Position numbers and translations under genes: made by a program. Shown here piece by piece: positions 20,714 to 36,571 of a stretch of 56,455 bases of DNA. The notes below the pieces were generated by a model. That model did not search any database and had not been told where the DNA came from. It saw only the letters and a program-made list of their open reading frames with translations. This DNA is from an uncultured Gammaproteobacteria bacterium (GTDB lineage: Bacteria; Pseudomonadota; Gammaproteobacteria; Arenicellales; JAANXG01), in NCBI GenBank assembly GCA_947258495.1, contig CAMYIN010000023.1:1-56455 (forward strand), given 5' to 3'. Every line of letters starts with the position of its first letter. The first letter of the stretch is position 1.

Positions 20714-21283
20714 ATGCCTTTGTCGAAACCGAACATAAAACGCGAACTCATTCATCAACGTCACATCGAGTGCCAGGGCTACCGCCGCGAAGACGGCCTG
20801 TGGGACATCGAAGGCCACCTGGTCGACACCAAGACCTACAGCTTCCCCAACCACGATCGGGGAGAAATCAAATCCGGGGAAGCGATACATGAGATGTGGA
20901 TTCGTCTGACCGTGGACGAGGATTTCGTCATCCGGGACGTCGAGGCGGTCACCGACTACGGGCCCTACAGCATCTGTCCGCAAGCCACGCTGAATTTCAG
21001 CGAGCTCAAGGGCACAACGATCAAACCCGGTTGGCGAAAACAGGTGAGCAATCGTGTCGGCGGGGTAAAGGGATGCACGCACCTGCGCGAACTCCTGGGC
21101 CCCGTGGCGACGACCGCGTTTCAGGCGATTTTCCCGATAAAGATGCGCACGCGGACCGCCCGCACCGACAACGCCCGCAAGCGTCCGCTGTTACTGGCGA
21201 CATGCCATGCGTACGCACCGGACAGTGAGGTCGTGCGCCGGCTTTGGCCAGCTCATTACCAGGAGCGTGCAGAAAACGACTAG
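20714..21283 (+). CDS. DUF2889 domain-containing protein
   Basis: This is a 189-residue soluble protein matching the DUF2889 family, seen from the N-terminal HIECQGYRREDGLWDIEGHL, the central WIRLTVDEDF and the conserved GCTHLRELL segment. Members often lie near acyl-CoA or steroid/fatty acid degradation genes in proteobacteria. The biochemical role is not known. No signal peptide or membrane segment is visible. The start has no clear ribosome binding site. The TAG stop codon overlaps the first bases of a MITE-like repeat (21282-21443), so the last residues could have been altered by that insertion. Confidence 0.85.
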   Translation: MPLSKPNIKRELIHQRHIECQGYRREDGLWDIEGHLVDTKTYSFPNHDRGEIKSGEAIHEMWIRLTVDEDFVIRDVEAVTDYGPYSICPQATLNFSELKGTTIKPGWRKQVSNRVGGVKGCTHLRELLGPVATTAFQAIFPIKMRTRTARTDNARKRPLLLATCHAYAPDSEVVRRLWPAHYQERAEND

Positions 21284-21443
21284 GAGCCTGTCCGCGTATT
21301 CTGCCCGTAGCGAGAATGTGGGAGAGCGAGACCAGTTGGCCGAAGATTCGAGGAGAATAGCCGGCTATTTGAGGAGAAGCTTCGGCAAAGTGGGCCGCTG
21401 TCCCGCGTTCGCAGTAGGAGCACGAATACCCGGACAGGCTCCT
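21282..21443. repeat. MITE-like repeat, copy 1
   Basis: This is a 162-bp non-coding element with terminal inverted repeats. The left end begins AGGAGCCTGTCCG and runs to GTATTC. The right end is its inverted complement over 20 bp with a single mismatch. Inside is a perfect 14-bp palindrome AATAGCCGGCTATT (21356-21369) and other short stems. A diverged copy in the same orientation lies at 35465-35625. No transposase gene is in the window, so it would be a non-autonomous element moved in trans. No target-site duplication is obvious. Its first bases form part of the TAG stop of the DUF2889 gene. The strong fold could also act as a 3'-end RNA structure. Confidence 0.85.
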
Positions 21444-21496
21444 GAACGCGCGCAAATAATGGGAAACTGCTTGAACCGGCCCTCGGAGGAGATGCG

Positions 21497-34300: not shown

Positions 34301-34504
34301 ATGCATACACCCGCTTCATCGCCCTGTGTCAAAGTCTGCGTAATCGACCCGCGAAGCGGATGGTGTCGGGGTTGCCTGCGCACGCTCGATGAAATAGCGG
34401 CCTGGGCGAGCCTCAGTCCGCGACAAAGACAGGTGATCGTGCTTCGCCTCCAATCACGTGCCGCCTCTGTCGACGCCGACAACCCGAAAGCAGACCGAAC
34501 ATGA
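34301..34504 (+). CDS. DUF1289 domain-containing protein
   Basis: This is a 67-residue protein with the DUF1289 pattern: SPCVKVCVIDPRSGWCRGCLRTLDEIAAW, four Cys likely holding a metal, followed by a basic helical tail. The family is widespread in proteobacteria and its function is not established. The ATG at 34301 is preferred. An earlier frame start would add residues without homology. Its TGA overlaps the ATG of the following dehydrogenase gene (ATGA at 34501-34504), so the two are translationally coupled. The pair has a candidate -10 box just upstream. Confidence 0.85.
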   Translation: MHTPASSPCVKVCVIDPRSGWCRGCLRTLDEIAAWASLSPRQRQVIVLRLQSRAASVDADNPKADRT

Positions 34505-35466
34505 ATCGGAAACCCGTGGTAGTGGTAACACGTAAACTCCCTCCGGCGGTCGAGCAGCGCCTGGCGCGGGACTATGCGCCCCGGTTCAACACCGAGGATC
34601 GGCTCTACACGACCGAGGAGCTGCGGCAACACTGTGAAGGCGCGCAGGCAATCGTGGCGACGCACACGGAAAAATTCTCCGCCGATGTGCTCGCCCGGCT
34701 GCCCGACAGCGTCCGGGTGATTGCGAATTTCTCCGTCGGCGTGGACCACTGCGACCTGGCCGCCGCCAGGGAGCGCGGAATCGTCGTCACCAACACCCCG
34801 GACGTGCTCGCCGACGCCACCGCCGAGCTCACCATGCTGCTGATCCTGGGCGCCGCGCGCCGCGCCAGCGAGGGGGAGCGGCTCATCCGCGGGGGCAGAT
34901 GGGACAGCTGGAGCCCGACCTTCATGCTGGGGACGCAGGTGACCGGCAAACGGCTGGGCATCGTCGGCATGGGCCGTATCGGCCAGGTGACCGCGAAAAG
35001 GGCGCGCGCATTCGACATGCAGATCCATTATCACAATCGCCGCAGGCTCGATCCCGAGCTGGAGGCGGGCGCGGTCTACCACGACTCCCTGGATTCACTG
35101 CTGCCGCAGTCGGAGTTTCTCGCCCTGCACTGCCCCAACACGCCGGACACCCGCGACCTGTTCAACGCCGACCGCATCGCCCAGCTGCCGGACGGCGCCA
35201 TTGTGGTGAATTCCGCCCGCGGCAACATCGTCGACGAAGACGCCATCATCGCGGCGCTGCGGTCGGGGAAGATCCGCGCCGCGGGCCTGGACGTCTACAA
35301 GAAGGAACCCCGCATCCGCCCGGAGTTCGCGGAGCTCGCCAACACCTTCCTGCTGCCCCATCTCGGCAGCGCCACCCACGAGACCCGGGACGCCATGGGT
35401 TTCCGGGCGCTGGACAATCTCGACGCCGTGTTTGCCGGAAGAGAGCCCGGAGACCGCGTCGCCTAG
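34501..35466 (+). CDS. D-2-hydroxyacid dehydrogenase (glyoxylate/hydroxypyruvate reductase-like)
   Basis: This is a 321-residue NAD(P)-dependent dehydrogenase. The coenzyme motif is GMGRIGQVTAKRA. The catalytic set is visible as Arg in VVNSARGNIVDE, Glu in DVYKKEPRIRPE and His in LLPHLGSATHETR. The sequence resembles the GyaR/GRHPR branch that reduces glyoxylate or hydroxypyruvate. The exact substrate is not fixed by these motifs. It is coupled to the DUF1289 gene by an ATGA overlap. Its TAG stop codon is shared with the first bases of the second MITE-like repeat. Confidence 0.92.
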   Translation: MNRKPVVVVTRKLPPAVEQRLARDYAPRFNTEDRLYTTEELRQHCEGAQAIVATHTEKFSADVLARLPDSVRVIANFSVGVDHCDLAAARERGIVVTNTPDVLADATAELTMLLILGAARRASEGERLIRGGRWDSWSPTFMLGTQVTGKRLGIVGMGRIGQVTAKRARAFDMQIHYHNRRRLDPELEAGAVYHDSLDSLLPQSEFLALHCPNTPDTRDLFNADRIAQLPDGAIVVNSARGNIVDEDAIIAALRSGKIRAAGLDVYKKEPRIRPEFAELANTFLLPHLGSATHETRDAMGFRALDNLDAVFAGREPGDRVA

Positions 35467-35625
35467 GACCAACCCGAGTATTCTGTCCGTAGCAAGAATG
35501 TGGGAGGGCGAGGGCAGTTGGTCGAAGCTTCGAGGAGAACAGCCCGCTATTCGACGAGATGCTTCGGCAAAATGGGCCGCTGTCCCGGGTTCGCAGTAGG
35601 AGCACGCATACGGGGACAGGCTCCT
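35465..35625. repeat. MITE-like repeat, copy 2
   Basis: This 161-bp segment matches the repeat at 21282-21443 along its length in the same orientation, with more substitutions. The left end is degraded (AGGACCAACCCGAGTATTC), while the right end retains GGACAGGCTCCT. The central palindrome is imperfect here (35538-35551). It fills the whole gap between two convergent genes: its left end overlaps the TAG of the hydroxyacid dehydrogenase gene and its right end overlaps the TAG of the EamA transporter gene. The fold could serve as a bidirectional transcript end. No transposase is present. Confidence 0.82.
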
Positions 35626-36571
35626 ACCCCCTCGAAAGGGCGCGTGCCCGCAATCTATCCCAGTTCATCTCCACCAAAACCGCGCTGCAGATGACCGCCA
35701 TTGCCGCCCAGCGCATGGGCGTCACCGTCTGCCCAAGGTACATCAGCGTCAGGACGACCGCAATGACGGGCTTCAAGAAAAACAGATAACTGCCGCGGGT
35801 GATGTCGGGTACCGCCGCAAGGCCGCCGATCCAGAGGAACTGCGTGATCGTAGTATTCCAAAAGGCGATGGTGATGAGTGCGCCGACCTGTTGTGCCGGG
35901 CGCTCAAACAAGGTAGCGGGATTCACCCAGACGTCAAAGCTGATGCCGACCAGTAACCAGAGTCCGATCGAGCCCAGCGCCAGGGTGATGGCGGTGATCC
36001 GCAGCGCCCCGAACTCGGCGATCAATGGGCGCACCCAAACCGTGTAGGCGGCGACGGTGGCGGCGCAGCCAACCGCCAGCAATACGCCGAAAAGATTGTT
36101 CACATCCCCAGCCAGTCTGGCCAGATAACCGTCCGTGAGCAGCAACGCCACCCCAATCACCGCCGCGATACCGCTCAACCAGCGGCCGCCCGATATCGGC
36201 TGTCGGTTGATCCACAGGTTCGCCAGGGCGACGAAGATCGGAATGGTGGTGACCGTGGTGGCGACCTGCGGAACCGTGGCGAAGTCCAGCGACCAGTGAA
36301 ACAGGAGATAACCCACGGTGATGCCAAGCGCGGACAAGCCGACGAGGCGCAGGCCGTGCGCCCGCATTGGCGCTAAGAGGTCGCGGCTGTCGGCAAACAG
36401 GAGCGCCAGCGCGATCAGTCCGGCGCTGCCGAGGGTAAACCGCCAGACGGACAGCTCCGGACCCGCCACCCGCGACAGCACCGCCACGAACTCGCTGGAC
36501 GCATGGCCGCAGACACCGACGAAAACCGCAAGATAAGCCAGCCAGGCGTGCCGACGCCACGGTGCCGTCAT
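35624..36571 (-). CDS. EamA/DMT family transporter
   Basis: This is a 315-residue inner-membrane protein with about ten transmembrane helices in two EamA repeats (for example LAYLAVFVGVCGHASSEF, IAAVIGVALLLTDGYLA, GSYLFFLKPVIAVVLTLMY). DMT transporters export or exchange small metabolites. The substrate is unknown. The ATG at 36571 overlaps the stop of the upstream alpha/beta hydrolase gene as ATGA, so the two are translationally coupled. An upstream frame extension is Arg/Pro-rich and lies inside that gene. Its own TAG stop is formed at the end of the MITE-like repeat, so its last residues may differ from those of relatives. Confidence 0.88.
   Translation of the reverse strand: MTAPWRRHAWLAYLAVFVGVCGHASSEFVAVLSRVAGPELSVWRFTLGSAGLIALALLFADSRDLLAPMRAHGLRLVGLSALGITVGYLLFHWSLDFATVPQVATTVTTIPIFVALANLWINRQPISGGRWLSGIAAVIGVALLLTDGYLARLAGDVNNLFGVLLAVGCAATVAAYTVWVRPLIAEFGALRITAITLALGSIGLWLLVGISFDVWVNPATLFERPAQQVGALITIAFWNTTITQFLWIGGLAAVPDITRGSYLFFLKPVIAVVLTLMYLGQTVTPMRWAAMAVICSAVLVEMNWDRLRARALSRG

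Follow-up and report, generated by a model that had tools for sequence, protein, structure and literature searches.

The repeat of about 160 bp that occurs twice in the window, the whole 56,455-nucleotide stretch of an uncultured Gammaproteobacteria bacterium analysed here, is most probably a MITE of IS1182 type which inserts at TA, or CTAG, and for which stop codons are neutral landing sites, because the target TA followed by the element's own G recreates TAG. An IS1182-family transposase would move this non-autonomous element, which would enter a TA, by preference inside the palindrome CTAG, and duplicate the TA. Such a target would steer the element to gene ends, since CTAG is scarce in the genome, which is GC-rich, and approximately one third of non-coding CTAG sites are C-TAG stops. 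TAA and TAG stop codons both contain TA. As the element begins with G at both ends, insertion within either codon would give TAG in both orientations and leave the protein unchanged, and this neutrality would be the reason that copies sited at stops persist.

The repeat and its flanking genes

The two copies (copy 1, 21283-21442; copy 2, 35466-35624) are 88% identical across 152 bp. Both start with GG and end with CC, and their ends, GGAGCCTGTCCG and CGGACAGGCTCC, are inverted with respect to each other. The features concerned are as follows.

20714..21283, + strand: DUF2889 protein gene, 189 aa; the ORF ends in TAG
21281..21283, + strand: TAG stop of the DUF2889 gene, target TA (21281-21282) plus the G of copy 1
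21283..21442: MITE copy 1, GGAGCCTGTCCG...CGGACAGGCTCC, an imperfect palindrome; RNA fold z -9.9
21443..21444: TG after the right end of copy 1; no stop there
34501..35466, + strand: D-isomer-specific 2-hydroxyacid dehydrogenase gene
35464..35466, + strand: TAG stop of the 2-hydroxyacid dehydrogenase gene, target TA plus the G of copy 2
35466..35624: MITE copy 2, in which the left inverted repeat has decayed; RNA fold z -1.2
35624..35626, - strand: TAG stop of the EamA gene, TA (35626-35625) plus G (complementary to the final C of copy 2)
35624..36487, - strand: EamA-family transporter gene, convergent with the dehydrogenase gene; start uncertain, ORF to 36781

As originally predicted, three of the four element ends coincide with TAG stops (21281-21283 and 35464-35466 on the + strand, 35626-35624 on the - strand). 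The composition first proposed for them, a T joined to an AG belonging to the element, has to be shifted by one base: TA is the target and only the final G is contributed by the element. At the fourth end the TG (21443-21444) is probably a mutated copy of the TA.

A probable MITE of an IS1182-like group

The repeat occurs in 13 stretches of the host genome; two lie in tandem and some are incomplete. Of 59 relatives searched, 10 gave a match at E 0.001, in some cases to a variant subfamily. A scan of a genome-contig collection with the end sequences retrieved 103 stretches from many phyla (80 are listed by name). One of them, L155, is complete at 1,599 bp and carries the 19-nt ends of the window repeat in inverted orientation; its transposase scores 362 bits with the NCBIfam IS1182 model (NF033551), whose cut-off is 270. 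A family relative harbours a second IS, L273, whose ends are of the variant type GCAGTCTGTCGG and whose transposase is similar (326 bits against the cut-off of 270). The transposases of IS with these ends include DUF772 and DDE domains. The window repeat itself is short and non-coding, carries terminal inverted repeats, is present in several dispersed copies and has its ends in common with an IS encoding an IS1182-family transposase (L155). Because its ends match those of L155 and a similar transposase occurs in L273, we class it as a MITE belonging to this IS1182-like group; it would be mobilised in trans by such a transposase. The identity of the ends with those of an IS1182-family IS is directly observed, as is the structure of the ends themselves. 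The host assembly (74% complete) yielded no DUF772 transposase; a search of 13 genomes located one in 9.

A MITE of the IS630/Tc1 type was considered and rejected: TA duplication is common to both groups, whereas the ends are those of an IS1182-family IS. REP elements of RAYT transposases are short palindromes headed by GTAG and tied to a RAYT gene. No match to the repeat was found in the plasmid collection, and Rfam covariance models gave no match in the window at gathering score. Two particular arrangements were observed among the copies. At L004 1501-1819 (G000:C191:5796-6115), tandem copies adjoin the aroG stop and the second lacks its first bases. In G009 (L037, L046, L255, L257 and L321-L330) a variant MITE is nested within a multi-copy host repeat, which is also found without the variant MITE at 11 places.

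Target word

C precedes TA in 85%, and T in 10%, of 134 unique ends gathered with a pattern that itself demands TA. Where TA is present on both sides (43 end pairs), C flanks it on both sides in 36 pairs, and the first base of the element is G at both ends in 42; in seven pairs the base before TA is other than C at one or both sides and the element still begins with G. Because these seven pairs vary before TA yet start with G, the duplication would most simply be of 2 bp, TA, in a preferred CTAG context, and a 4-bp duplication of CTAG was set aside for the same seven pairs; at pure CTAG sites the two are indistinguishable. G009 provides eleven uninterrupted CTAG sites, AAACCGCAGTACTAGCAGGGCTA, in a related subfamily, with the same flanks as the filled copies, which identifies CTAG as the target. 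The TA/CTAG context of the ends and these empty sites of the related subfamily are thus direct observations. In the window, CTAG is strongly depleted, with 21 occurrences against 72 expected from dinucleotide shuffles.

CGGG, often as GAGAAATNCGGGCTA, precedes 12 of 115 CTA ends in unrelated genomes, compared with 24 of 1,625 other CTAG sites, and may represent an extended target motif. Left flanks of the CGGG type are found at L031, L033, L045, L060, L117, L131, L146, L165, L246, L262 and L273 (both ends); three of the 12 ends preceded by CGGG come from one Acidobacteria group and have look-alike flanks.

Frequency of insertion at stop codons

In 436 kb of host sequence with element copies masked, stop codons make up 164 of the 2,504 TA sites that are non-coding or stops (6.5%) and 28 of the 89 corresponding CTAG sites (31%); masking only the two window copies gives 165/2,533 and 29/94. 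Across the host and six relatives, 10 of 29 copies have one or both ends at a stop codon, 11 stop ends altogether. This is five times the rate for generic TA (binomial P 9e-6), with no clear excess over CTAG (P 0.43) or over a null weighted by the base preference of the element, 27% (P 0.24). Restricting the count to the 22 copies in which a TA end is preserved gives P values of 0.12 relative to CTAG and 0.049 relative to the weighted null; in the host genome alone, where 4 of 11 copies lie at stops, they are 0.004 relative to TA and 0.47 relative to CTAG. The null is derived from the host genome alone and the counted copies from the host and six relatives; genes were called with our own codon-usage script rather than a standard program. 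Not included in the 29 are L018, a fragment from the element's interior, L247, in which no end could be recognised, the poorest of the partial matches, and every copy from the variant subfamilies whose ends are GCAGTCTGTCGG or GGAGCCTGTCGG. In these subfamilies two ends lie at stops (L047, L050), and in G009 many of the variant copies share one nested flank.

The wider set of 103 stretches was analysed with gene models trained on pooled stretches by GC. Here 18 of 119 ends lie at a called stop, 88 ends have TA, and 48 of 194 CTAG sites that are non-coding or stops are stops on either strand; by our own arithmetic about 12% would be expected per end, against 20% of TA ends. We draw no excess from this test since some of its stop ends probably belong to genes interrupted by the insertion, as at both ends of L128, though an excess would be compatible with it.

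Because the excess is seen against TA and none is clear against CTAG, the target word would account for most or all of the coincidence with stops, a small extra excess, or some further selection for stops, being compatible with the data. An excess at stops over intergenic insertion, which the original prediction had made its criterion, is therefore real when measured against TA sites and no longer clear when measured against CTAG. The suggestion that the element inserts, or is tolerated, only at gene ends fails: 19 of the 29 copies have no stop end, and copy 1 sits between two co-directional genes.

Are stop codons made or met?

C-termini were compared with those of element-free relatives at seven of the 11 stop ends, leaving out L035, L044, L249 and L262. 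At five of the seven, the gene ends at the identical residue in one or more element-free relatives. The dehydrogenase (left end of copy 2) has the identical last residue in all 16 element-free homologues examined, out of 24 loci fetched, its own locus included; their stops are TAG in nine, TGA in five and TAA in two, and the element-free G001 reads GCC TAG at the junction. AroG, which lies beside the tandem copies of the host, ends at the identical residue in 5/5 element-free relatives of the same genus, with TAA in four and TGA in one, and has TAG in the host, where the element is present. The same residue is last in the one relative available for the glycosyltransferase at copy G000:C70 (G007, TAA) and in one of three relatives of the RND adaptor of G002 (G004, TAA).

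For EamA (right end of copy 2), a tail of nine residues follows NWDR, likewise in G002, G003 and G004 (NWER in G004); elsewhere the tail is of six (G005), seven (G001) or eight residues (G007), and the stop is TGA in the five relatives of the same genus and TAA in G007. The LivG-like gene of G012 ends at this position in none of ten element-free relatives, four of which end one residue earlier. This insertion is common to G008 (L339, G008:C289) and G012 (L338/L027, G012:C84), and the G008 copy has suffered a large internal deletion in the element while keeping the TAG stop. The DUF2889 gene (copy 1) is nine residues shorter than all five hits of the same genus, in a family whose tail extends from five to 19 residues past a conserved WP. 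Sequence to the right of copy 1 is readable as a continuation of the DUF2889 tail, and G002 lacks TA there. The DUF2889 gene may thus have gained a new, earlier stop from copy 1, in which case copy 1 may be at odds with insertion into an existing stop.

From these comparisons, in which the conserved positions of the stops are observed directly, we infer that the event is mostly insertion into the TA of a pre-existing stop, remade as TAG by the G of the element. The proposal that the ends donate a stop in either direction holds in so far as the element's G completes TAG in either orientation; what is donated mostly rebuilds a stop that was already there. The C-termini themselves give a divided answer, with a possibly new stop in DUF2889 and unchanged ends in the dehydrogenase (16/16) and AroG (5/5).

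The two convergent stops at copy 2

Being palindromic, CTAG could serve two convergent genes as a stop on both strands, and insertion of copy 2 into such a CTAG would leave each gene with a TAG on its own side. Stops shared by both strands are rare in the host sample (0/28 CTAG stops and 2/164 TA stops), so the EamA stop may instead be a later acquisition; the sequence of events at this gene, as at the DUF2889 gene, is inferred. Beyond the right-hand TA of copy 2 stands C, where CTAG predicts G; this would require a single substitution in a visibly decayed element. In G001, the stops of genes 2 and 3 flank a 19-bp imperfect hairpin which is absent from the window.

Hairpin structure

Copy 1 would fold as RNA into a very stable hairpin (z -9.9) and copy 2 would not, its fold (z -1.2) being comparable to that of shuffled sequences. 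Pairing is retained in 93.1% of cells in 14 copies, with changes on both sides at only 3 of 46 pairs. The covariation score is matched by 2 of 500 shuffles and the number of pairs changed on both sides by 158 of 500; as the sequences are related, covariation of the hairpin appears weak. An RNA function for the hairpin was rejected on the lack of an Rfam match and on the changes at both sides of only these three pairs. No terminator with a T-tract was found in the element between 35000 and 36000, the sole terminator-like site of this region lying outside it. The movable 3'-end cassette between convergent genes that had been envisaged therefore finds no functional evidence and no terminator of the element's own in 35000-36000.

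Alternative explanations

An unlikely alternative is that targeting or selection brings the element to gene ends, where it would act as a cassette of stop and 3' hairpin between convergent genes. The fivefold rate over ordinary non-coding TA in 10 of 29 copies, the borderline excess over the weighted null among the 22 copies with a TA end, the high stability of the copy 1 hairpin and the possible new stop of the DUF2889 gene all speak for it. The excess is, however, not clear against CTAG sites in either count (P 0.43 and 0.12), 19 of the 29 copies are away from stops, most stops are pre-existing, the element has no terminator-like site in 35000-36000 and the copy 2 hairpin is no more stable than shuffles. 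A still less probable reading is that TA belongs to the element, which would import a whole TAG and shorten or end genes with it. Most intact ends do show TA, and the right flank of copy 1 is readable as DUF2889 tail without TA in G002; against this, the empty sites of G009 contain CTAG, and element-free relatives of the dehydrogenase and AroG have a TA-containing stop exactly at the junction. This is the least credible of the explanations considered.

Replacement of a stem-loop, in which the element would be exchanged for an inverted repeat with no target duplication as for IS1272, is also improbable, lying between the two former readings. The transposase family is identical (IS1182) and the precedent is described in the accessible text of PMC5678879; the imperfect hairpin between the stops of G001 is missing in the window, and palindromic flanks of 10, 6 and 7 bp occur at L112, L048 and L273, respectively. 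Flank complementarity at positions 4-11, measured in 94 end pairs with chance pairs included, is nevertheless 0.281 compared with 0.274 for shuffled pairs, a value reached by 732 of 2,000 shuffles; many pairs have TA at both sides, and the empty sites show a bare CTAG. As a general mechanism it was discarded, since flanks behave as shuffles and TA is duplicated, with L112 and L048 as exceptions. In these two (L112 6812-6841, L048 605-663), elements consisting of ends only (30 and 59 bp) lie in longer palindromes and recall the hairpin targets of IS1272. Insertion of an IS1182-type MITE at TA/CTAG remains the preferred reading.

Relation to known elements and significance

IS1272, of the IS1182 family, is reported in the accessible text of PMC5678879 to replace inverted repeats with no target duplication. 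The likeness to the window element lies in the transposase family of the IS bearing its ends (L155, L273); the group of the window element differs in duplicating TA in a CTAG context, with palindromes in the flanks not being general, and the window element, unlike IS of the IS1182 family, lacks a transposase. MITEPsy1 of Pseudomonas syringae is a 100-nt MITE with CTAG or YTAA as target and a 4-nt duplication, and its source is probably ISPsy2, a member of the IS5 family (PMC3189936, accessible text). It is similar in its target words, which contain TAG or TAA, and differs in its inverted repeats; no mention of insertion into stop codons was found in that text. Correia/NEMIS, ERIC and RUP elements, as described in the accessible text of PMC2229807, are of approximately 100-200 bp with hairpin-forming transcripts, terminal TA and mobilisation in trans, by an IS630 relative in the case of RUP. 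They share size, hairpin-forming transcripts and TA termini with the window element, but their end sequences are not the same, and RUP depends on a transposase of another family; a CTAG preference was not found in that text. MITEs and CTAG avoidance in Haloquadratum are treated in PMC3119063, likewise in the text accessible to us. Among the matches listed, which came from the open literature and few subscription papers, none describes stop codons as landing sites of CTAG-targeting elements.

It is tempting, as a tentative extension, to regard the CTAG target and the G-initial ends as a safe-harbour strategy: the IS group might have evolved to use stops as landing sites, with accumulation at gene ends beyond the frequency of CTAG and the seeding of new 3' untranslated regions across phyla. 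A CTAG/TA target paired with a terminal G makes insertions at stops silent for the protein, and gives a simple rule for transposons found exactly at gene ends. An excess at stops over "intergenic" sites does not demonstrate a preference for gene ends until the target word has been accounted for, and the rule is applicable to any element that targets TA or CTAG.
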